Shown: positions 17,713 to 28,435 of the stretch, piece after piece | How positions within the stretch are numbered: the stretch's first letter is position 1 | Layout of the letters: every line of letters begins with the position of its first letter | Assembly: GCA_903842505.1 (NCBI GenBank) | Contig: CAIMMI010000021.1 | Location: forward strand, 1-40,449 | Origin: an uncultured Verrucomicrobiota bacterium | Lineage (GTDB): Bacteria; Verrucomicrobiota; Verrucomicrobiia; Limisphaerales; UBA9464 | DNA length: 40,449 nucleotides | Reading direction: 5' to 3' | Program-made: the position numbers and the translations under genes | Notes under the pieces: model-generated | Told to the model about the DNA's origin: nothing | Seen by the model: the letters and a program-made list of their open reading frames with translations, nothing else | Database searches by the model: none

Positions 17713-17836
17713 CGGGAGGTTCCAAGTCTCAAGATTCAAGTTTCAAGCCCCGCAGCACGAAAGCGAATCGGGACGGGGTGGGGCGAGACTCCGTCGAGCC
17801 GTTCATGGAGCCCGTGAATCTTGAAACTGAGAACTT
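17713..17836. repeat. Dispersed repeat pair downstream of dctA
   Basis: CAAGATTCAAGTTTCAA (17724-17740), then the GGCGAGACTCCGTCGAGCC repeat (17778-17801), then the inverse-complementary GAATCTTGAAACTGAGAAC (17816-17834). The outer two segments can pair, so the repeat sits within an imperfect inverted repeat, as it does at 32877-33018. Confidence 0.6.
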
Positions 17837-17866
17837 CTAACTAGGGCTGCCGGTGCCGGTCGTCAT
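17837..17866 (-). pseudogene. Ten-codon remnant of a pseudopilin gene
   Basis: The stop of the gene at 17863 overlaps an ATG (17866) in the same ATGA arrangement that joins its paralogue to the complete pseudopilin at 18925-19794. The first five codons (MTTGT) are identical to that pseudopilin. Then changes appear and a TAG follows at codon 10 (MTTGTGSPS). Everything after it is replaced by repeat DNA. This shows that the downstream copy of the module once carried, and lost, a pseudopilin. Confidence 0.7.
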
Positions 17867-18756
17867 GGCACGTGGACCAGGCGCAGGAAGAGTTGGCCGT
17901 CCTCGTGCAGCACGAACTCGGCGGAGGATCCCACCACTTCCGGGACCCGGGTCCAGAGGACGGGCGGGGCCAGGTCGGTGGCCTGCTCGAGGCGCAGGGT
18001 GTCCCAGCCCGTGGGCCACTGGACGCGGATGCGGGGCGGCAGGCTCTCCGTGGCGGGAAGAAACTCGGAAGTCAGCTGGGGCAGGTCAGGGGCCTCACCG
18101 GCGCGGATGGGACGATCCGGGATGGGGTGGATGGCGGAACCCGCGGGCCAGAAGGCGACACGTTTCTCCCGGCCGTCGGGCCAGAAGATGTCCGACGGGT
18201 TGGGCGTGTCGCGTTCGAGCCGCACCCAACCGTACTGGGTTCCCGTGCCCTGCGGATGCGGTCGGGCAAAGCCGATGAGGATGTTGGTCTGGCCGGGGAA
18301 GAAGTCCTTCACGGACCTAGCGGTGACCCATGGGCCGGGCCGGTGCTCGGTCCAGACGTACCAAAGAAGTGCCATGGCCCAGGTGTCCCCAGATGCTTCG
18401 TTGGTATATGAGAGGCTGGAGTCCGAGATGACGGCCCCAGGCGCAAATGCGATTCGCGATGCTGAAGCCCGACGGAATCCGCCCTCGGATGGTCTTAGCT
18501 GCAGGATTTCGATCACCGTCCGATCCAGGAAGTCGATGCCTTCAAAGTGGCTGACTCGAACGTCCAACAGCACCTGAGATGGATCGGACGCCGCGCCCTC
18601 AGCGGACATCTTGATGGGTTCGTCGAACAACTGCGCCCTGAGGCTGAGCAAGAAGACCCAATGCACCAGGATGAAGCCCACAAAACGAGAGACGTGATGC
18701 CTTGGAGCGCAGTCTACACCCAGGGGAGGTTGGAGCGGATTTTGGGTGTGGCTCAT
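17863..18756 (-). CDS. Secreted protein of unknown function, paralogue of 19791-20618
   Basis: 297 residues. The N-terminus MSHTQNPLQPPLG is followed by a hydrophobic export signal (FVGFILVHWVFLLSLRAQ, about 25-42); a GTG at the start of that segment is an alternative start. The C-terminal about 165 residues are almost identical to the gene at 19791-20618 ([51 protein letters not shown]). The N-terminal half is only distantly similar, so the pair looks mosaic. The family is not recognised. The closing QLFLRLVHV resembles the C-terminal beta module of many Verrucomicrobiota secreted proteins. Confidence 0.75.
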   Translation of the reverse strand: MSHTQNPLQPPLGVDCAPRHHVSRFVGFILVHWVFLLSLRAQLFDEPIKMSAEGAASDPSQVLLDVRVSHFEGIDFLDRTVIEILQLRPSEGGFRRASASRIAFAPGAVISDSSLSYTNEASGDTWAMALLWYVWTEHRPGPWVTARSVKDFFPGQTNILIGFARPHPQGTGTQYGWVRLERDTPNPSDIFWPDGREKRVAFWPAGSAIHPIPDRPIRAGEAPDLPQLTSEFLPATESLPPRIRVQWPTGWDTLRLEQATDLAPPVLWTRVPEVVGSSAEFVLHEDGQLFLRLVHVP

Positions 18757-18769
18757 GGCGGCGATGAGC

Positions 18770-18798
18770 TAGATCCCAAACATCTCCGGGGATGTCAA
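18770..18798 (-). promoter_or_regulatory. Putative promoter, copy 2 (TTGACA box)
   Basis: TTGACA (18798-18793), a 17-bp spacer, then GATCTA (18775-18770), 14 bp before the ATG at 18756. The TTGACA hexamer is perfect; the -10 is poor. The same arrangement, with a conserved GTTTGGGATC spacer end, precedes the homologous operon at 24526-24554. Conservation between the two copies supports a regulatory role, but it may just reflect duplication. Confidence 0.4.
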
Positions 18799-18924
18799 AC
18801 CACGAGTCCCATGGAAGTTCCCAGTCGCCAGATCCCAGATCCCGACGGACTGGCAACTGGCCTCTGGAGACTGACAACTCCCCCGCCCTTGAATCTTGAA
18901 ACTGAAAACTTCGAACTCCCCCCA
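18799..18924. repeat. Dispersed repeat between duplicated modules
   Basis: GTTCCCAGTCGCCAGATCCC..., GGACTGGCAACTGGCC..., GACAACTCCCCCGCCC and TTGAATCTTGAAACTGAAAA follow each other here. The same order is found at 24580-24837 upstream of the homologous operon. There an additional about 150 bp containing a CCCCGGGGTTCCACCCCGGG hairpin is inserted (about 24618-24764). The segment marks the border between the two module copies. Confidence 0.65.
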
Positions 18925-19794
18925 CTACTGCGGTCCGGAATCCCCGAAGCACCGTGTCCGATCATGGAGCCACCGGAAATCGCGGCTGCCGGGCGTCCGC
19001 TGGACCCAGGTCATGGCCAGAACCGCTGGATCCGGCGACGTAGAAGTCTCCACCCACTTCCGGATCTCCACGTGCCCGTCGGCGAAGCTGACGGGAGTCG
19101 CCCGGTTGTGCCGGACCGAGGGGAAGTTCCACCAATGCTCCGCGCCCGACGCGGCCGGCCAGAACATCTCGAATCGTCCATCATCGATGCTCCGCGGATC
19201 CTCTTCGAGGAGCACCCAGACGTCGGAGGGACTCATCCTGCGGAAGTCGGAAGACTTGTAGAATGTGACAATCCTGTCCCGATCGACGGTGTCGCCGATT
19301 CCCATCGCCGAGTTCATGGCGTAGCTGCGCACACGATAGGGCGGACGCTCCGAGTTCTTGAGGATTCCGGATCGATCCGCCGGACAGCGAAACACGCCGG
19401 GTGCGCCCACGTAGGGGCCGATGCTGCCCGTACCCCGGCCGATCAGCAGGTCGGTGTTGGTCCGCATCCAGATCCATTCGGGCGGGTCCTTCCATCCCAG
19501 GGATCCCGCGACCCAACCGCCGGAAGCCATATCGGCGCTGACGATCGCTCCGGCCGTCGGGGCAAGCCACCCGGTCTCCTGCTCGTAGACTGCCCAGGCC
19601 AGCATCAGTTGCCGGACATTGCTGAGGCACGCAATGCGTTGGGCGGAGTGCTTCGCCCGGGACATGGCAGGGAGAACCATGGCCGCCAGCAGCGCGATGA
19701 TGGCAATGACGACCAGCAGTTCGATCAGCGTGAACGCCGCACCGGACGCGCGTCCTGTTGCTTGCTGATTGGGTCTGGCGGTGCCGGTCGTCAT
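18925..19794 (-). CDS. Pseudopilin (type II secretion-like prepilin) with H-x9-DG motif
   Basis: 289 residues from the ATG at 19794, which overlaps the stop of the preceding gene (ATGA). The prepilin signature [20 protein letters not shown] begins at residue 21, with Glu at +5 of the mature protein. The residue before the cleavage site is Ala, where Gly is usual. Near the C-terminus [16 protein letters not shown] contains the H-x9-DG motif typical of the very numerous pseudopilins of Planctomycetota and Verrucomicrobiota. The body is a secreted globular domain with Cys pairs (ACLSN, FRCPAD). It is the last gene of the operon 24377-18925 and is probably assembled or anchored at the cell surface with the two secreted proteins encoded upstream. 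Confidence 0.88.
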
Positions 19795-20618
19795 GGCACG
19801 TGGACCAGGCGGAGGAAAAGTTGACCGTCCTCTGGGAGCGCGAGCTCGGCGGAGGCACCCATGACCTCTGGCACCGGCGTCCACAAGACGGGCGTGGAAA
19901 GGTCCGCAGCCTGCTCCAGCCGCATGGTATCCCAGCCCGTGGGCCATTGGACGCGGACGCGGGGCGGCCGACCTTCGCTGGCTGGCAGGAATTCGGAAGT
20001 GAGTTGGGGCAGGTCAGGGGCCTCACCGGCGCGGATGGGACGATCCGGGATGGGGTGGACGGCGGAACCCGCGGGCCAGAAGGCGACACGTTTCTCCCGG
20101 CCGTCGGGCCAGAAGATGTCCGACGGGTTGGGCGTATCCCGTTCAAGCCGTACCCAGCCGTACTGGGTTCCCGTGCCCTGCGGATGAGGTCGGGCGAAGC
20201 CGATCAGGATGTTGGTCTGGCCGGGAAACCAATCTTTCACAGACCGGGCTGTGATCCACGGACCGGGGCGGTGCTCGGTCCATCCGTACCAGAGGAGTGC
20301 CAAGATGCGAGTGCTGCCCGAGGGTTGGTTCGTGTAGATTCGCGAGGCGCTCGAGATGGTCGATCCTGGGCTAAACGCAACCGACGTGCTCGACGGTTGA
20401 AGGAATGATCCTTCGGATGAGGTCAGTTCCAGGCCTTGAGGAATGGATCGGTCCAGGTAATCAATGCCTTCCGTGTGGTGAACGGTGACGTTCAGGACCA
20501 CCCGAGTCGTGTCCGTTGGCTCTCCGGCAAGAAGCCGGGTGAACGACTCGTCGATCAGCTGGGCTCGCAGGTTCCAAGCGGCGACGACGGGGAAAACGAG
20601 AAGAATGGCTTTTTTCAT
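19791..20618 (-). CDS. Secreted protein of unknown function, operon partner of pseudopilin
   Basis: 275 residues, with the signal peptide [20 protein letters not shown]. It starts 12 bp after the stop of the beta-helix giant and its stop overlaps the pseudopilin start, so the three are one operon. The segment from about residue 125 to the end is nearly identical to the paralogue at 17863-18756. Over a 128-bp stretch (20010-20137 versus 18081-18208) I count one difference, while the first 100 residues are only about 45% alike by eye. The family is unknown. The body looks beta-rich and it ends in [11 protein letters not shown]. Confidence 0.78.
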
Positions 20619-20630
20619 ACGCGGTGTTTG

Positions 20631-23600
20631 CTAAGGAGCCTTCAGCTGCGGAATGAGGAGAAATGCACGATTTGCACCTGCCTTCGAACCATTGCCGACG
20701 AGCGTCTCTGTCGCGGTTGCGTCAACAATCTCACGGAGAACCCAGTCATCTGAGAACCCGTAAACGGCGTGCTTGTCTGAGAATCCGGCTCCCCCTGTCC
20801 AAGCCTTTTCCCATCTCCAAGCTTTGCGGTTCTGGCCGTTGATATCCCCAACCCAGCCAAAGAGCGCTGTGTTGTTCACGATGGCATTGATGGCTCCAGA
20901 CTCTTCTGGCAGTGAAACTATAACCCACTGATTCGTGCCGTGCTCTGGCCCATTGTCCTGACGGGACCACCAAACCGCCGGCTTCTGAACATGCGCAGCC
21001 ACGCTCGGTTCCCACCTCATCGCCCAGCCCCCAGCCAGCCCGCTGTAAACACCGGAGCGTTGCCCTATTGCCAACGCGGCCGATGGAACGTTCTCCTCCG
21101 GTACAGCGGGGTTCTGAATCGGGGGGTGGAGGAAGTCGCCGCTGACGACCGGTTCGGCATTCTTGCGGCTTCGGAAGGCGCGGGGGATGTACTGGCCGGA
21201 AGTGTTCGGAAGTTTTCGGTTTCCTACGAACTCCCCGTCGTCATTGACTGCAGGGACCTCCCCGGCGCGGCCAGAATTGAGGGTCGTCTCGGAGAACAAG
21301 GGCGACATCCCACCAGAGACGGTCCAATAGACGGCGAACTGCTCCTGAATTGTAGGGGTTCCCTGACTCCGGGTGGCATAGCCGCCAATGTAGGTCCCGT
21401 TGGGACTGATACAAAGCGCCCGGTTTTTGTCCTGCAGCCAGTCGGAGGTGGTGGGGACTGGAAGGTAAACCCAGCTGGCAGGAGTGCCGGGCAACGTGCC
21501 CTGCCAAGCCTTGATGGCCCGGTCGAAACTTGATGTTGCTCGGACATAGCCGGGAAACACGCTGGCCTGCTGATCGCTGACGCCCGTGACGATGGGGGAG
21601 AAGGGTACGGAAGGAGTATCGAAGACGAAGACTGGCTGGCCGGAGAAAGCGGCGGACGAAAAACTCCACTTGGCGCCTACTTCACCCAACAGCGAACTGC
21701 CCGGGGAGCTGCAATCAATCCAGGCATTGGCGGCCACCACCGGGATCGGCAGCCCCTGCGCCGACAGCAGACCACTGATCCCGACACCCCGTGTTTCACC
21801 ACTGGGCGTGGATGGAAGCGTCATCAGCGAGGGGAGCGTCAAATCACGCGGAGGCTGCGATCCCTTCCGTGAAGGTGGGCGGATTCGCGACGTTTCCAGA
21901 GGGTCGTCGCAGATCAGGCTGTGCGTCAGCTCGTACAGCGTCCATGGCGGCCCATCATAGATGAATATGGAAGCCTTGCCCCGGAGGGAGCTGACAGCAT
22001 GGGTCGATGCAGCCTGCAGAGTCACCCACACGTGTTCCCGCTCGATCGTCTCATCAGCCTGCGGAACAACCCGGACATCCACAAAGGCCTGGCCGGCGGG
22101 GAAAGTGATCGTGCCCGAGGTGCCGCTGGCGGTTACTGAGCCGAGCCCGGAGACAATCAATGAGAAGTCGGTGCCGAGTGTGGCTGGACGGCGGGCCGCA
22201 GACTCAGCCAGCGAGAACGTCACCGGAAGGCTCGCGCCCACGGAACCGGTCCGGTGAAACCGGAGGCGGCCTTCCTGAACACCGCCTTCCCGTCGATCCT
22301 GGGCAACGGCGATCAGTGGTTCAACCGAGACGACTGTTCCGATGGCAATGGTCCCCTTGGCGTAGGCGACTTTGTACTCCGCGAATTGTCCCGCGGCACC
22401 TGGACCCGCAGCGGGGTCGTGGAATGCCGTGACGTTAAGTTCACCGTGAACCCCGGTGGGAATGGGGATTTGAAACTCGGTACTCCCGAAAACGTCGCTG
22501 TCAGCATTGCCATTCCAGGTGCTGAGGCCAGTGACCTTCAAGGAGAGGCATTTGCCCTCGGGGAGCTCGGTGGCATTCGGAGGCGTCTGTTGAAGTGCGA
22601 TACGGACCGGGAGCGTGACCGTTGTGGAAGAGAGGGTGGGAGATGCCATCGAGACCTCGAGTGCACCCGTCAATCGCATGTCCTCAAAGCTGAGGGTGGG
22701 AGGCTGGCCCTCGCCGATTCTCCAGGGATAGTCCCGGGTTACCACATTCGTCTGCGGAAGCACCCGGCAGATCCGTCCGAAATTGAACTGGAGCTGCCCG
22801 AGGTCCATGTCGGTCAGGACTGGGTACTCTGCCTGAACCGGAGCCGGAGCCGTCGGAGTGACCGAGGAATAGGTTCCGGGAGTCGGCAGGGGTACCTTGG
22901 ACCCGATCCAGGTGAAGTCCTGACCGAAGTCGGAGACGTAGTTCTGTCCGACCGTCATGTTGGCACCATCGAAGTATTGTTTCGGGCCCTCGTCGCAGGA
23001 TGCTGCGGTCATTGAAGGGACTTTGCGCAGCAGCCGGAACTTCGGGTTTGCCAGAGGAGCGGATGTCTCGTCGAAGCGCGCCGAAGGGATGGTGGTAATG
23101 TGGTTGTTCGCAATCGTCAGATTGTTGACGGATCCCATCCGGGCGAGGAGGAACTGATCGTTGATCTCGGTGCGACCCAGAATGAGTGACGGATCGGTGT
23201 AGGGTGCGCCGAAGTCACTCAGCGATTTCCAACAGAACGATCGGTACGAGTAGGCGTTCACCCGTGGACCTAGTCGTAGGCTGTTGTTGGAGAGGTTGAA
23301 TCCGTCGTTCCATCCAGTCGGACCCGCATTCATGTTTACCCACCAACGGACGTTCAACCCGAGTGAGTCGAGGATGTCCACGTACTTCAACTTACCGGTA
23401 TCACCGTTGTAACCAAGGCTCGCGTTGAGGACGATGCTATCCCGGAATGTGGTCCGCCCGGACTCATCCGAACCCCACGGGCTGCTGGCGTTCCCCATGG
23501 CAATGACGGAAACACCATCTGAATCTGAGCGATACTGGACATTGCGAATCACCGCAAAGCGACGCGCCGGATCGTTCTTGGCCCATGCAGGCGTGAAGGC

Positions 23601-24377
23601 AGCAGTCTTGGCATGGACCATCATCTCGGTCGTGTATCCTGAGTACGCACTTGTGAAGCCGTGGATCTCGCAATCGAAGACCTCCCATGGGGCCCTGAAC
23701 CAGGTCGGGCGTGGTTGTCCGACATCGTGTCCGCCAACGACGAAGGGAAACGCTTCTATACCTGCGGCACCGCCATAGTGCGCCCAAGGCACATATCCAA
23801 CCGATCCAAAATTACGGACGATCAGCTTTCGGGCAGCTCCGGTTCGTGCGGTCAGGTTCAGAGGGGCGTTCTTGTAGCCCTGAGCCGAGTTGAGGGTCGC
23901 GATCTGGTCCATCTTCCAATCCCATCCGCCATCCAGCAGCAGGTTTTCCACAACAAGGCGATCCGCCGTGATGGGGGCACCTCCGGAGTTGGCGAGGCTG
24001 AGATTCAGGGCAATGACGTAGTCCGGATTCGGAAAACCCGCACCTACCAGCGGTGAACGGTTGACCAGTCGCACCTCGTCCGGGGTTGGCCCCTGACCCT
24101 TGATCCATATCCGAAGTTGAGACAAACGCGCGCCATCGAGGGATGCTGGAAGGACGATCGGAGCAGTGATCTGATAATCGAGCGTGGCTGATGGCAGGAG
24201 GCGAAACTCGAATTCGGGCTCTCCCGGTGCGTTGGTGATCGTGTGACCAAATGTGATACTGCTGAACGCCATCGGGGATTCGGCGCTGCTACCGTCCCCA
24301 GTGCCATTAGGCGAGCACCATTTCACTAGCGGCGCCGCCATCAACTCACTTGCCCCCAGAGCGAGTGACCCGATCAA
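20631..24377 (-). CDS. Giant secreted protein: beta-helix region, Calx-beta-like domain, HAF-like repeats
   Basis: 1248 residues counted from TTG 24377, an improbable start. The true N-terminus is probably encoded further 5', through the decamer repeat, giving PPWIARLLIGSLALGASELMAA as the signal peptide. Domains: residues about 15-520 are rich in N/G turns like a right-handed beta-helix (VVENLLLDGGWDW, FDCEIHGFTSAYSG, MGSVNNLTIANNHITTIP). About 690-810 is Calx-beta-like (GRLRFHRTGSVGASLPVTFS, ADETIEREHVWVTL). About 980-1240 has HAF-type extracellular repeats (RALCISPNGTYIGGYA, PAVNDDGEFVGNRKL, INAIVNNTALFGWVGD). It is probably a surface or secreted adhesin, or a polysaccharide-associated protein. 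It is the first gene of the operon with 20618 and 19794. Confidence 0.8.
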   Translation of the reverse strand: MIGSLALGASELMAAPLVKWCSPNGTGDGSSAESPMAFSSITFGHTITNAPGEPEFEFRLLPSATLDYQITAPIVLPASLDGARLSQLRIWIKGQGPTPDEVRLVNRSPLVGAGFPNPDYVIALNLSLANSGGAPITADRLVVENLLLDGGWDWKMDQIATLNSAQGYKNAPLNLTARTGAARKLIVRNFGSVGYVPWAHYGGAAGIEAFPFVVGGHDVGQPRPTWFRAPWEVFDCEIHGFTSAYSGYTTEMMVHAKTAAFTPAWAKNDPARRFAVIRNVQYRSDSDGVSVIAMGNASSPWGSDESGRTTFRDSIVLNASLGYNGDTGKLKYVDILDSLGLNVRWWVNMNAGPTGWNDGFNLSNNSLRLGPRVNAYSYRSFCWKSLSDFGAPYTDPSLILGRTEINDQFLLARMGSVNNLTIANNHITTIPSARFDETSAPLANPKFRLLRKVPSMTAASCDEGPKQYFDGANMTVGQNYVSDFGQDFTWIGSKVPLPTPGTYSSVTPTAPAPVQAEYPVLTDMDLGQLQFNFGRICRVLPQTNVVTRDYPWRIGEGQPPTLSFEDMRLTGALEVSMASPTLSSTTVTLPVRIALQQTPPNATELPEGKCLSLKVTGLSTWNGNADSDVFGSTEFQIPIPTGVHGELNVTAFHDPAAGPGAAGQFAEYKVAYAKGTIAIGTVVSVEPLIAVAQDRREGGVQEGRLRFHRTGSVGASLPVTFSLAESAARRPATLGTDFSLIVSGLGSVTASGTSGTITFPAGQAFVDVRVVPQADETIEREHVWVTLQAASTHAVSSLRGKASIFIYDGPPWTLYELTHSLICDDPLETSRIRPPSRKGSQPPRDLTLPSLMTLPSTPSGETRGVGISGLLSAQGLPIPVVAANAWIDCSSPGSSLLGEVGAKWSFSSAAFSGQPVFVFDTPSVPFSPIVTGVSDQQASVFPGYVRATSSFDRAIKAWQGTLPGTPASWVYLPVPTTSDWLQDKNRALCISPNGTYIGGYATRSQGTPTIQEQFAVYWTVSGGMSPLFSETTLNSGRAGEVPAVNDDGEFVGNRKLPNTSGQYIPRAFRSRKNAEPVVSGDFLHPPIQNPAVPEENVPSAALAIGQRSGVYSGLAGGWAMRWEPSVAAHVQKPAVWWSRQDNGPEHGTNQWVIVSLPEESGAINAIVNNTALFGWVGDINGQNRKAWRWEKAWTGGAGFSDKHAVYGFSDDWVLREIVDATATETLVGNGSKAGANRAFLLIPQLKAP

Positions 24378-24393
24378 CAGGCGTGCAATCCAT

Positions 24394-24494
24394 GGTGGGA
24401 GCGGGTGGGAGCGGGTGGGAGCGGGTGGGAGCGGGTGGGAGCGGGTGGGAGCGGGTGGGAGCGGGTGGGAGCGGGTGGGAGGGGGTGGGAGCGG
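24394..24494. repeat. 10-bp tandem repeat, about ten units, at the start of the giant gene
   Basis: Eight perfect GCGGGTGGGA units (24401-24480) plus a variant unit (24481-24490) and partial units at both ends. Read on the minus strand, the array has no stop codon in any frame and encodes a repeated SHPLPPAPTR. Because the unit is 10 bp, each gain or loss of a unit shifts the reading frame. The array lies between the ATG at 24513 and the signal peptide of the gene at 20631. Confidence 0.95.
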
Positions 24495-24510
24495 GGTTTT
24501 TGGGATTGCT

Positions 24511-24513
24511 CAT
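24511..24513 (-). other. ATG that is out of frame with the giant secreted protein
   Basis: ATGAGCAATCCCAAAAACCC at 24513 matches the start of the paralogous module gene at 18756 (ATGAGCCACACCCAAAATCC; MSNPKNP versus MSHTQNP). It lies 136 bp before TTG 24377, one base over a multiple of three, so in the sequenced form it gives only a short peptide ending HGLHAC-stop. Removing one decamer (126 bp) or adding two (156 bp) would fuse it to the giant protein. Confidence 0.7.
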
Positions 24514-24525
24514 ACGGCCACAACT

Positions 24526-24554
24526 TTGATCCCAAACCTCGTTAGCAATGTCAA
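24526..24554 (-). promoter_or_regulatory. Putative promoter of the secreted-protein operon (TTGACA box)
   Basis: TTGACA (24554-24549), a 17-bp spacer, then GATCAA (24531-24526), 13 bp before the ATG at 24513. It is homologous to the box at 18770-18798, including the spacer end GTTTGGGATC. The -10 match is weak and the implied leader would be only a few bases, so the exact start site is uncertain. Confidence 0.4.
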
Positions 24555-24579
24555 ATCACGAGTTTAGGATTTGGCCCAT

Positions 24580-25037
24580 GGAGGTTCCCAGTCGCCAGTT
24601 CCCAGATCCCAGATTCATGCGCGGCATAAGGCGACAACCCAGGGCGGAGCGGAGCGCAACCCCGGGGTTCCACCCCGGGCTTTCGCCGGTTGCCCCTTCG
24701 GGGCTCGAGAACGGCACGCTGAAGACGTTCAAGCGACCAGCCCCAGGCGCGGATTCCTCCCCGCAGCCGGACTGGCAACTGACCTCTGGAAACTGACAAC
24801 TCCCCCCGCCCTCGCCCCGAATTTGAATCTTTAAACTGAACCTAGAAAAGGCGGTTGGATCCACAGATTGCACCGATTCCACGGATTGGAAGCCAGTTGA
24901 GAGAGGCTGTCGTTTCACCCTGCGGGTGACATGGAAACGGCGAAGCCGTGGGGCCTCTGGTTCCAGTCCATCTGTGAAATCTGTGAAATCGGTGGATAAC
25001 CCAACTGCCGGTTTCAGGCTGAAATCTTCCAACTCCC
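24580..25037. repeat. Repeat cluster with hairpins and a palindromic element
   Basis: No gene is seen. 24580-24837 holds the GTTCCCAGTCGCCAG/GGACTGGCAACTG/TTGAATCTTTAAACTG series, with an inserted CCCCGGGGTTCCACCCCGGG hairpin unit. 24859-24997 is an imperfect inverted repeat: a 28-bp arm at 24859-24886 (ATCCACAGATTGCACCGATT...) and a 29-bp arm at 24969-24997 (...GTGAAATCGGTGGAT). Inside are small hairpins CACCCTGCGGGTG and GGCGAAGCC. It resembles a non-autonomous intergenic element. Confidence 0.6.
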
Positions 25038-25910
25038 CTACGGAACCACCCTCGCCGGATCCAATCGCCCGACCCGATGCGGCGGCACGCGTGGATCCAG
25101 CGATCCGGCCAGCGGCCGTTCACAGCCCACGTGTCCGTCGGCGAACACGGCGTGCGCCTTGGTCCCGTGACGGAAATGGATCGTCGCTTCCAGCCGGTTC
25201 GTCCCGAAGTAATAGAACTCCTCCAGCATCGGCTTCTCCGGTGAGGCCGGTGCCTGGAAATCGTTGACCTGGGCGGCGTCCACGAGCACCGCCAAGCCCG
25301 ACGGTTCCTGCACCTGCGCCAACTGGATCGGGTCGCGACCCCGCGGTCCCATCAGGAGGTTATAGGCGTATCCGAACGCGCCGCCCTTGGCCTTGAACTT
25401 GAACCGGTCCCCCGACTGTTGGAACGCCGGGCAGACATCCACCCCCCGACCACTCAGGTAAGGCCACAGCGCACCGGACTTCGCCTCGAACCGACGCTCT
25501 CCCTCGGCCCCATCCTGCAGCCACCCGAACCAATACCTCCACCCGTCCTCCTGCCGACCAAACCGCTCCGGGAAGGCCCGACCCGAGTGATCATCCCAAT
25601 ACAACTGCGACGCGATCCCCAACTGCCGCAGGTTGCCCACGCATCGCGCCCCCAGCGCCGCCTGCCGCGCCTTCACCATTCCGGGCCCAGCCAACCCCGC
25701 GAGGATCGCGATCACCGCCACCACCACCAGCAACTCCACCAACGAAAAACCCGTAGCCGACGACGTCAGGAGGCGGGATTCTCCCCTTCCCCCATTCCCT
25801 GTAGCCGACGACGTCAGGAGGCGGGCATCTGCCCCTCCATCCCTCTCCCCGTAGCCGACGACGTCAGGAGGCGGGATTCTCCCCCCCTTCTCAAACCCCA
25901 CGACCTTCAT
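25038..25910 (-). CDS. Pseudopilin with repeat-extended leader, last gene of riboswitch operon
   Basis: 290 residues from the ATG at 25910, which overlaps the stop of the preceding gene (ATGA). The prepilin motif is at 54-72: G54/F55 cleavage, FSLVELLVVVAVIAIL, with Glu at +5. FRHGTKAHAVFADGHVG near the C-terminus carries the H-x9-DG motif. The leader before the cleavage site is 54 residues, far longer than usual. It contains three copies of a 25-bp DNA repeat read in two frames (PPPDVVGYG once, RLLTSSATG twice), so the repeat invaded the leader at DNA level. It is expected to form a pseudopilus-like or surface-anchored subunit with the upstream gene products. Confidence 0.85.
   Translation of the reverse strand: MKVVGFEKGGRIPPPDVVGYGERDGGADARLLTSSATGNGGRGESRLLTSSATGFSLVELLVVVAVIAILAGLAGPGMVKARQAALGARCVGNLRQLGIASQLYWDDHSGRAFPERFGRQEDGWRYWFGWLQDGAEGERRFEAKSGALWPYLSGRGVDVCPAFQQSGDRFKFKAKGGAFGYAYNLLMGPRGRDPIQLAQVQEPSGLAVLVDAAQVNDFQAPASPEKPMLEEFYYFGTNRLEATIHFRHGTKAHAVFADGHVGCERPLAGSLDPRVPPHRVGRLDPARVVP
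25753..25875. repeat. Three 25-bp repeats in the pseudopilin leader
   Basis: Copies at 25753-25777, 25801-25825 and 25851-25875 share GACGACGTCAGGAGGCGGG preceded by GTAGCC. They are separated by 23 and 25 bp of unrelated, C-rich sequence. They are identical to each other and nearly identical to the set at 26874-26982. Confidence 0.9.
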
Positions 25911-27004
25911 GGCAACCGCCCTCCCACGCGATAGAACCGCTCCGGCGGCAACCCCTTCGTCGCATCCTGCAACACGACTTCCCGCCCCGTCCCCGCGACC
26001 TCCTCCGACACCTTCTCCCACGCCTTCAGATCGCCACTCGACTCCAACCAATACCGCCACCCGACCCGCGTCCCCGTCACCACCCGCCGCACCACCTCAT
26101 TCCCCTCGAACCGCACGACACCGACCGCCGCGCCCGGCCCGTTCCACCGCAGGTCATCCACCGTTCCCACGGCACGGACGGATCCCGCATACAACGGATC
26201 CTGACCAACGTCCGAGTAGCTGTTGATCGACAGCGCATCGACCCGGAACCCCGTGAAGTTCCGCGGCAACACGATCGGCGCGGGCGTTGGAAGTGGAGTT
26301 CCGTCCGCCGTCATCGAGATCCGCAGCGTCCGGTTCGTCGCGGTATAGGTCAGGTCGAACCCATACTGCACCCCCGTCTCCAGTTCGAGATAGCTGTCGC
26401 TGAAACCCCACGGCAACCGGCCATCGGCCGGCACCACCGCGGGCGAGAGTGACGCCGAGATCGCGCCGTCCGGCTGCGCCCCGAACCACGTCCACTCCAC
26501 CAGATTCCTCGATCGCAGGAACACCCCGCGCTGGAATCCCGGATCCGACGCATCGGCCACGCGGATCAACCCGAGCGCGATCTGGAACGTCCCCGACTTG
26601 CCCGGAGTCGTGCCCACCGCGTGCTCCGACAACTTCAACCCGAACCCGAACGCAAAATCATCCGCCGCCGTCACCGGACTCGCGAGGCGTTTGAGGAAGT
26701 AACTGTTCGTCCGCGACGAATCCCACGTCACCGCCAACGACTTCGCCCCCTCGTTCCACGCAAACAACGACGCGTCCCCCACGACTTCCCACCCGGACTG
26801 CATCGGGTCCCGGTCAAACGACTCCACCCACGCCTCCGCCGCCCTCGCCTCCAAGGCCACCACCGTAGCCGCCGTAGCCGCCGACGTCAGGAGGCGGACC
26901 ACCCTCCCCACCGTAGCCGCCGACGTCCGGAGGCGGGTTGCTCCCTCTCCCTCCCCGGTAGCCGACGACGTCCGGAGGCGCATTCTCCCCCATCCCCGCC
27001 TCAC
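25907..27004 (-). CDS. Secreted beta-sandwich-like protein, third gene of riboswitch operon
   Basis: 365 residues from the GTG at 27004, which overlaps the TGA of the upstream gene (GTGA); the ATG at 26983 is an alternative. The N-terminal 55 residues are largely made of three 25-bp DNA repeats (RLRTSSATG, RLRTSAAT, RLLTSAAT) running into AATVVALEARAAEA, which may act as the export signal. The rest looks like a secreted concanavalin-type beta sandwich (WVESFDRDPMQSGWEVVGDA, FAFGFGLKLSEHAVG, RIADASD-like turns). It ends with a C-terminal module common in Verrucomicrobiota secreted proteins (WRYWLESSGDLKAWEKV, then PERFYRVGG). The ligand is unknown. Confidence 0.75.
   Translation of the reverse strand: MRRGWGRMRLRTSSATGEGEGATRLRTSAATVGRVVRLLTSAATAATVVALEARAAEAWVESFDRDPMQSGWEVVGDASLFAWNEGAKSLAVTWDSSRTNSYFLKRLASPVTAADDFAFGFGLKLSEHAVGTTPGKSGTFQIALGLIRVADASDPGFQRGVFLRSRNLVEWTWFGAQPDGAISASLSPAVVPADGRLPWGFSDSYLELETGVQYGFDLTYTATNRTLRISMTADGTPLPTPAPIVLPRNFTGFRVDALSINSYSDVGQDPLYAGSVRAVGTVDDLRWNGPGAAVGVVRFEGNEVVRRVVTGTRVGWRYWLESSGDLKAWEKVSEEVAGTGREVVLQDATKGLPPERFYRVGGRLP
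26874..26982. repeat. Three 25-bp repeats at the start of the secreted protein gene
   Basis: Copies at 26874-26898, 26913-26937 and 26958-26982 of the GTAGCC + GMCGACGTCMGGAGGCGGG family. One lies right behind the GTG/ATG start codons. Two base positions vary (A/C). This is the same family as 25753-25875, so both downstream genes of this operon have the repeat at their 5' ends. Confidence 0.85.
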
Positions 27005-27429
27005 ACCGCACCTCCCGCGATCGACTCCAAAACCTCCGCCCGCGGCCTTCCCGCCTCATCAAACGGACAATGCCGGCAACCGTTCCCGCAACAGTACCCC
27101 CGGCGAAGGTGATACCGTTGCGTGAACACGAACCGGCCGTCCTCCGTGAAGTAGAACTCCCCGGCCTTCGCCCGCGGCATCCAACGTTCCGTCCGACGCG
27201 CCTCGGCCACGCACCGATGACAGATGCACGAGCGCCCCCGCGATTCCTCGGGCAACCGCTTCATCAACTCCTCCGGCATGTCGAGCTGCATGCACCAGCA
27301 GCTGCCCTTGTAGGGCGCATCCGACGCCAACGGACAACCGTTTGGCCCGCCGCACAGGGGACAGACCGTCCCCTCGCGCGGCGAAGCCGAACAGCCACAA
27401 CCCGACCCGTTGGATCCGCAGGCGCTCAT
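27001..27429 (-). CDS. Cysteine-rich CWC + DUF5522 protein, second gene of riboswitch operon
   Basis: 142 residues from the ATG at 27429, overlapping the stop of the PEP-CTERM gene (ATGA). It has two cysteine-rich modules. Residues 1-75 fit the Cys-rich CWC pattern (C23-x2-CGG, C32, C44-W-C46, CIC at 68-70, C73). Residues 92-123 fit DUF5522 (EFYFTEDGRFVFTQRYHLRRG followed by YCCGNGCRHCPF, 112-123). About 17 cysteines in 142 residues indicate metal binding, zinc or another ion. No signal peptide is seen, so it is cytoplasmic. These two domains are often separate small proteins, and here they are joined. Its place in a cobalamin-controlled operon is unexpected. Confidence 0.82.
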   Translation of the reverse strand: MSACGSNGSGCGCSASPREGTVCPLCGGPNGCPLASDAPYKGSCWCMQLDMPEELMKRLPEESRGRSCICHRCVAEARRTERWMPRAKAGEFYFTEDGRFVFTQRYHLRRGYCCGNGCRHCPFDEAGRPRAEVLESIAGGAV

Positions 27430-28310
27430 CGATTGGAGGAATCGCGGCCAATCCGCCGGGCCACTCCGGCCAGCCCGATCGAACCCGCCAGCAACATCAC
27501 CCACGTCGACGGCTCCGGCACCGGCCGGACCACCGACACACCGTCGAGTTCCACCCGACCCGACGGCACCTCGATCCGGATGTACGAAGCCGAATCAATC
27601 GACACCGGGAGGCCGGCGCCATCGCGAGCCCAGGCCAAGGAGAAGCCCGCGCCACCGCCGCTGCCGGCGTAGAGACCGCGGATGCCGTCCAGGCCCAGCC
27701 CATTAAAGTGCGAGTAAGTCAGGGTGGGGTTCACCGGCACGCCAAAGTCACCGCTGCCATCCGTTGGGAACAGGGCGTCCAGCACCGGAGCCAGCGATCC
27801 ATCCAACGTGAAATACTGAAGTCCATCGGCGCTCACCGAGACCTTCACCTCGGCCCGATCGTCTCCGAAGACCGATCCATCCGTGATGCCGCCGCCCGAG
27901 TAGTCACCGTTCGTGATGATGAAGGCCGCGCCGCCGAACACGAGGAAGTCGATGCCGTAGGGATTCAGCGGACTGCGCGTCGCCGGGGTGTCCAACCGGA
28001 GCTCCAGCACGCCGCCCGTTCCGACCGACAGCAACTGCCCGACCTGCCACGGAGGATTGAATGGATCCACCGGACCGCCGAACGGCCCCGGGATCGAGCG
28101 CGTTGGTTCGCCCAGGATCGATGCCACGTTCGTATAGCCACCGCCGGTTCCGAACTCGGTCGCGAACCCCGTGCCCGACTCATACCGCTTCACCTCGACC
28201 GCATACTGGGCGAGGACGGAAGCGCTTGAGGCCATGAGGCCGAACATTCCACACACACCGGCCACGATCCCATTCCGGGTCCGGCCGCCATTCCACTGCT
28301 GGATCTTCAT
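27426..28310 (-). CDS. PEP-CTERM surface protein, first gene of the cobalamin-riboswitch operon
   Basis: 294 residues from the ATG at 28310 (GGAG seven bases upstream). Signal peptide: GIVAGVCGMFGLMASSASVLAQ (about 14-35). The C-terminal 31 residues (264-294) are a PEP-CTERM sorting signal: VPEPST, a hydrophobic helix (WVMLLAGSIGLAG), then VARRIGR. The protein should therefore be exported and processed by an exosortase and held at the cell surface or released into matrix. The body is beta-rich with many Gly/Asp turns (GVLELRLDTPATRSPLNPYGIDF, FVFGG-type strand) and looks like a surface binding module. Being the first gene behind a B12 aptamer, it may take part in corrinoid capture. That is inference. 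Confidence 0.87.
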   Translation of the reverse strand: MKIQQWNGGRTRNGIVAGVCGMFGLMASSASVLAQYAVEVKRYESGTGFATEFGTGGGYTNVASILGEPTRSIPGPFGGPVDPFNPPWQVGQLLSVGTGGVLELRLDTPATRSPLNPYGIDFLVFGGAAFIITNGDYSGGGITDGSVFGDDRAEVKVSVSADGLQYFTLDGSLAPVLDALFPTDGSGDFGVPVNPTLTYSHFNGLGLDGIRGLYAGSGGGAGFSLAWARDGAGLPVSIDSASYIRIEVPSGRVELDGVSVVRPVPEPSTWVMLLAGSIGLAGVARRIGRDSSNR

Positions 28311-28435
28311 CAACGGTCTCCGTCCATCTGTTCCCTGGCGTCCCGGTCAGAGTCGGAACGCATTTCAATAGTCTGGAGACCAGTCCGGAAATGACGGCGC
28401 CTGTCCTCCCGACCCGGTTCACGCCGGATCAGGAC

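Follow-up and report, generated by a model that had tools for sequence, protein, structure and literature searches.

A tandem decamer between start codon and signal peptide as a candidate translational switch in a predicted secreted protein family of uncultured Verrucomicrobiota

The locus described here raises the question of how a large predicted secreted protein can be produced when the ATG that appears to be its start codon is out of frame with its signal peptide. The window, i.e. the whole stretch of 40,449 nucleotides that was analyzed, comes from the draft assembly (362 contigs) of an uncultured Verrucomicrobiota bacterium. The start region of the gene consists of the following elements:

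20631..24377, minus strand: open reading frame of the 1248-aa predicted secreted protein, listed from TTG 24377
24333..24392, minus strand: signal peptide core WIARLLIGSLALGASELMAA, recognized by hydrophobicity alone, without a trained signal-peptide predictor
24394..24495, minus strand: decamer array, CCCACCCGCT on the gene strand, 10.2 copies, stop-free in all frames; proposed slippage switch
24511..24513, minus strand: ATG, proposed start codon, one base out of frame in the assembly; a homologous box and an in-frame ATG are found at 18756
24512-24510, minus strand: TGA overlapping ATG 24513, in the frame of the protein
24549..24554, minus strand: TTGACA box, putative -35 element 41 nt 5' of the ATG, which would imply a short 5' UTR or none

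The array has a period of 10 nt with 97% match between copies (TRF), and two consecutive decamer units are found at no other site of the 5.2-Mb genome (reversed control, 0 sites). The distance from ATG 24513 to TTG 24377 is 136 nt, or 3x45+1, which puts the ATG one base off the frame of the signal peptide; this value, calculated anew, agrees with the first-pass annotation, as does its prediction that the loss of one unit (126 nt) or the gain of two (156 nt) restores the frame, both lengths being multiples of three. The same annotation described the entire gap as stop-free repeat. The array is indeed stop-free, but it covers 102 of the 136 nt, and one stop, the TGA overlapping the ATG, is present as the sole stop in any forward frame of this stretch. 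In the assembled state, the frame of ATG 24513 encodes a 55-codon peptide with the end MDCTPVDRVTRSGGK. The frame of the 1248-aa protein is open for 1292 codons, and its coding signal starts at 24383, directly past the array, according to a simple gene caller for which 41 stretches of the genome, the window among them, served as training set.

The tandem repeat thus sits in what its position suggests to be the translated 5' part of the gene, and we consider it likely that the decamer array provides translational phase variation by repeat slippage, acting as a contingency switch. Transcription would start shortly 5' of ATG 24513, and ribosomes would begin at this codon and cross the stop-free array; only if the unit number aligns the two frames would they go on into the signal peptide and the 1248-aa protein. 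Decamers would be gained or lost via replication slippage or recombination, presumably in a reversible manner, and since each such event would change the frame, cells of one population are proposed to differ in secretion of the 1248-aa protein. In the assembled state, in which the frame of the ATG stops after 55 codons, the gene would be OFF, and no protein should be made from it. The same design appears to be used by related genes with other repeat units.

One alternative is that ribosomes use a non-ATG codon 3' of the array as the start, for instance TTG 24377, the array being part of an untranslated leader. TTG 24377 is in frame, and the coding signal from 24383 also fits such a start. However, a signal peptide begun at TTG 24377 has no basic residue and a weaker core; in line with the missing basic end pointed out by the first-pass annotation, none of the three in-frame starts 3' of the array (TTG 24377, then a later TTG and an ATG) has a lysine or arginine ahead of the hydrophobic part. 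Given also the start codons of the related genes described below, we regard a downstream start as very unlikely.

The upstream box is shared by other leaders of the window's genus. TTGAC is located 36-49 nt 5' of the ATG in all seven leaders of this type that were aligned from the genus (C21, which is the window gene, the gene at 18756, C94, C61, C31, C17, and C133), compared with 27 of 773 ATG starts that have TTGAC at -55..-30, at least the 18756 gene and C31 being among these 27. Within 24350-25050, scanning for the consensus detected no sigma-70 promoter, and no common -10 box was seen by eye in the lined-up genus leaders. The array gene is the first gene of a cassette, which recurs beside C61, C31, and C17, and is followed by these genes:

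19791..20618, minus strand: 275-aa protein, second cassette gene, with tblastn matches beside C61, C31, and C17
18928..19743, minus strand: pseudopilin-like protein, third cassette gene (N_methyl motif, Pfam PF07963), with homologs beside C61, C31, and C17
17863..18756, minus strand: 297-aa paralog of the 275-aa protein, with box and ATG as in the array gene, in frame and without an array

The gene starting at 18756 had been presented as a paralog with a homologous start. Its upstream box and ATG are homologous to those of the array gene, but the gene itself is a paralog of the neighboring 275-aa gene (74% over 260 aa) and not of the 1248-aa protein. A 300-nt stretch at 17837-18136 is 84% identical to 19765-20064, and it is probably the trace of a partial cassette duplication that made the second copy of the 275-aa gene. 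On the other side of the array gene, six copies of a dispersed element with the core CCGCCTCCTGACGTCGKCGGCTAC were observed at 25750-25890 and 26871-26997; they occupy the leader of a pilin-like ORF and the N-terminus of its neighbor, where they encode RLLTSSATG-like peptides; this element has 227 sites in the genome at up to two mismatches (reversed control, 0).

No Pfam, NCBIfam, or PHROG family matched the 1248-aa protein, and a sequence homology search against solved structures gave nothing useful for it. Two domains were recognized from structure models:

22803..24335, minus strand: right-handed parallel beta-helix, residues 2-512 of the AlphaFold2 model
21954..22367, minus strand: Calx-beta-like beta-sandwich, with approximate limits taken from strand positions in the model

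The AlphaFold2 model of residues 14-820 has a mean pLDDT of 84.3 and a pTM of 0.88; the model of the C-terminal domain is poor (pLDDT 57). Among solved structures, the best VIA-align match is the alginate epimerase/lyase 8ja4 (Z 25.9, rmsd 2.9, 302 residues), followed by the Vibrio polysaccharide lyase RbmB (7chu) and, at lower scores, by phage tailspikes and the pneumococcal adhesin PfbA. According to the model, the protein has the beta-helix fold of lyases, epimerases, and tailspikes. The sandwich matches 3e9t and 3h6a in Foldseek (probability 1.00, TM-score on target 0.64, E about 7e-3); the fold match to 3h6a reaches E 7.6e-3, yet there is no Pfam match to Calx-beta up to E 1. The lowest Foldseek E-values belong to transglutaminase and integrin chains, which were left unused at TM-scores of 0.10-0.16. 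A shared fold does not show function, and a role of the modeled protein in binding or cutting extracellular polysaccharides is at most a fair guess.

At a threshold of 1e-30, members of the gene family were identified in 23 of 320 genomes of the order, and 19 of these genomes belong to the window's bacterial family. Ten members, C21 counted, have a tandem repeat between the ATG and the signal core. The minisatellites comprise the 10-nt unit of C21, a 14-nt unit in C94 of the same genome (3.4 copies), an 11-nt unit in C61 of G006 (4.1 copies), a 13-nt unit in C31 of G007 (3.2 copies), a 14-nt unit in C17 of G007 with NN within the array, and a 13-nt unit in C300 of G018 (7.0 copies). The remaining repeats are poly-C tracts: 11 C in C36 and 8 C in C37, both of G009, 8 C in C143 of G016, and 9 C in C221 of G009, the last found by a pattern search. 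The units of the six minisatellites are unlike in sequence, and all six are without stops in any frame. None of the unit lengths (1, 10, 11, 13, and 14 nt) is a multiple of three.

Arrays were classed as strong if they had a unit of at most 25 nt, 3 copies or more, a match of 90% or higher, and a TRF score of 70 or higher. Such arrays touch the start of 5 of 812 genes, all of this family (C21, C94, C31, C300, and C61); the 812 genes are those with the start region inside the sampled stretches of four genomes, and since these stretches were chosen to take in family contigs, the survey is silent on how common the family is. The other 807 genes, including C17 and the array-less family members, have no array of that strength. 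C17 is one of 25 weak arrays near starts, graded so because of the NN inside, and about a third of the other 24 are variants of AAACTTG or its complement. As to a general phasome, the genome has 77 N_methyl pilin matches, and reading 30 of these by eye revealed no start array.

The repeats are not scattered at random over the family tree, which has 26 rows, 8 of them with repeats (C37, C221, and the fragment C133 were left off). Arrays are present in all five members of one clade of the window's genus (C17, C94, C31, C21, and C61) and in none of the six members of its sister clade (C245, C348, C66, C136, C62, and C90). The array label changes three times on the tree, compared with a mean of 7.0 for shuffled labels, and none of 500 shuffles was as low. 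A member of the gene family from another bacterial family, L281 (G116:C316), has two copies of a 13-mer directly after an out-of-frame ATG; it was not counted as a repeat-switch member, as a signal peptide can be read from an in-frame ATG farther on.

For every family gene, we listed the last six in-frame starts together with all ATG codons located up to 210 nt 5' of the domain, and frames were counted by reading these start lists by eye. An out-of-frame ATG was counted for 7 of the 9 repeat-bearing members that could be scored, versus 1 of the 21 that have no repeat (Fisher p 0.00013, which is a guide only, since the rows share descent). Excluded from these counts were C17 (NN in the array), five genes with an absent or broken N-terminus (C72, C43, C49, C407, and C219), and C170 of G004 and C212, both without an N-terminal match. 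The 21 members without repeats include C62, which is in frame and has a duplication of about 100 nt spanning the start, and C133, the one out-of-frame member of this group, a contig-end fragment from the window's genus that has a C31-like leader and no clear array.

In seven repeat-bearing genes (C21, C94, C61, C300, C36, C37, and C143), none of the in-frame starts close by would yield a complete signal peptide including its basic end, whereas C31 and C221 do have such a start. These start lists also argue against the downstream, non-ATG start considered above: in C61 and C300, the open frame of the protein contains no ATG, GTG, or TTG at all upstream, C37 has late in-frame starts only, and those of C36 are either a TTG 128 codons upstream or lack a basic residue. 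In 20 of the 21 members without repeats, by comparison, an in-frame start with a complete signal was found.

Another explanation for the shifted frames is assembly error, in which the true unit number is constant and in frame and the array is a passive coding repeat. All compared sequences are draft assemblies, and repeat arrays are easily mis-sized; in a fragmented assembly such as that of the window, the decamer count at 24394-24495 could be wrong, as any 102-nt array could, and the NN in the C17 array points the same way. On the other hand, a passive coding repeat should have a unit that is a multiple of three, which none of the observed units is, and errors would be needed in seven of nine repeat genes and hardly anywhere else. 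In addition, C36 and C221 have tracts of different length in leaders that show no other difference next to the tract. We therefore hold assembly error to be unlikely.

Of the seven out-of-frame repeat genes, six are in the same phase and C21 alone is in the other. The strongest point in favor of programmed frameshifting by the ribosome, or of slippage during transcription of the repeat, is this common phase; the protein would then be made at a fixed level, and a poly-C tract could conceivably slip in transcription. Against this explanation, which we judge highly improbable, stand the deviating phase of C21, the in-frame state of C31 and C221 at the DNA level, the variation of tract length between paralogs, and the lack of any motif common to the arrays, as judged by eye.

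The poly-C genes of G009 allow paralogous leaders to be compared within one genome. Three leaders share ATGAAGAGTCGCTTATA followed by a C tract of 11, 8, or 9 nt; C36 (11 C) and C37 (8 C) are out of frame and C221 (9 C) is in frame, its leader being translated as MKSRLYPPPRILSRLVTLCGWWLGVFSSLATDYFVST. C36 and C221 agree at all 17 nt between ATG and tract and at the 22 nt past it, with scattered differences farther away. The body of C221 lies near a contig end (L270), where the leader and the first helix residues jump in frame to the Calx-beta part; this jump may have resulted from a deletion or a chimeric assembly. Both in-frame and out-of-frame lengths are therefore known for the poly-C leaders of G009, and the decamer of the window is a single allele.

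Substitution rates bear on whether the out-of-frame genes are kept by selection. For C36 and C37, dN is 0.008 and dS 0.103 (dN/dS 0.079, 379 codons), and for C36 and C143, the values are 0.112 and 1.412 (dN/dS 0.080, 287 codons); the C36-C221 ratio of 0.37 comes from just 42 aligned codons. The ratio of about 0.08 in C36, C37, and C143 indicates that these poly-C genes, although assembled out of frame, are kept by purifying selection. Between C21 and its nearest relatives, dS is near or past saturation (2.1 for C21-C61). The out-of-frame start could by itself mark a dead pseudogene killed by expansion of the array, an explanation that we find extremely unlikely in view of the 1292-codon frame without a stop, the low dN/dS of related out-of-frame genes, and the recurrence of arrays at three places of the tree. 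Each of the four alternatives leaves at least one observation unexplained, be it the units that are not multiples of three, the paralogs in mixed frames, the purifying selection, or the missing other starts. The proposal of phase variation made by the first-pass annotation is thus supported as the best reading by the relatives, with their same-place repeats of non-triplet length and their frames.

Similar tracts were also sought with a sequence pattern. The pattern ATGA-N4..24-C8 has 43 matches in seven genomes versus 8 in the reversed control, and 14 of 36 distinct sites have a clear coding frame past the tract (score above 60; the coding model was trained on part of those genomes). As only these 14 sites have a clear frame, we make no claim of a general poly-C switch. 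In the window's own genome, L250 (G000:C283:2600-2624, minus strand) consists of ATGAAGGAGTACCCCCTCCCCCCCC followed by an in-frame signal-like peptide and is possibly another poly-C leader. The same genome contains an 8-nt array, CAGGGGCG, with 10.4 copies at L096 14999-15081 (G000:C51), which is located about 145 nt 5' of a 903-codon gene and was judged to be upstream sequence.

Slippage switches are known mostly from host-associated bacteria. The opa genes of Neisseria are present as several paralogs per genome in different phases, and the poly-C paralogs of G009 likewise occur in different frames within one genome. In opa, the frame depends on how many CTCTT repeats the leader-peptide region contains (PMC3960869), and the arrangement proposed here is alike in having a tandem repeat of non-triplet length in the leader, with the copy number setting the frame. 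The two systems differ in the unit, which has 5 nt in opa and 1 or 10-14 nt here, in the replacement of the unit between relatives here, in the host, here an uncultured Verrucomicrobiota bacterium, and in the protein: Neisseria Opa is an outer-membrane barrel encoded with CTCTT, whereas the window gene has a predicted beta-helix and the unit CCCACCCGCT, and it does not belong to the Opa family.

Within the same phylum, slippage-based phase variation has been proposed for Akkermansia muciniphila from homopolymer tracts (PMC3048395), and guanine tracts were described in Akkermansia capsule genes, one of which has the repeat at its end (PMC13343947). These tracts resemble the present case as proposed slippage-based switches; unlike here, the accessible text of the two papers mentions no leader minisatellites (PMC3048395, PMC13343947). 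Akkermansia also uses invertible elements for phase variation, such as the promoter inverton of cps1 (PMC13343947). The phenomenon and the phylum are common to both cases, but the Akkermansia elements act by inversion, and no inverted repeat pairs of at least 25 nt were found at 17800-28400 (seed 12). The organisms named in one discussion of slippage, in its accessible part, are mainly human-associated (PMC3048395). None of the matches listed from the open-access literature describes phase variation by leader repeats in these bacteria. The mechanism is therefore a known one, and the new elements are the lineage, the protein family, and the replacement of the repeat while its position stays.

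The differing repeats at the same spot in relatives suggest, as far as the compared genomes tell, that switching has been kept while the repeat keeps being replaced. More tentatively, and with slightly less than an even chance in our estimation, selection may keep a frame-shifting repeat at the site between start and signal, the repeat itself being repeatedly lost and rebuilt from new sequence, in a switch that works outside any animal host; the last point was derived from names such as pond MAG. Because the repeat differs among most repeat-bearing relatives while its place and frame-shifting length stay, the family offers a direct test of whether selection maintains switching. One practical consequence is that automatic annotation is likely to mis-start such proteins or to lose their signal peptides. 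If the proposed reading is true, a switch heads a recurring three-gene cassette in uncultured Verrucomicrobiota, and the genes form a contingency family in which the position is conserved and the repeat (10, 11, 13, or 14 nt, or poly-C) is expendable, perhaps directed against phages, predators, or changing polysaccharides.
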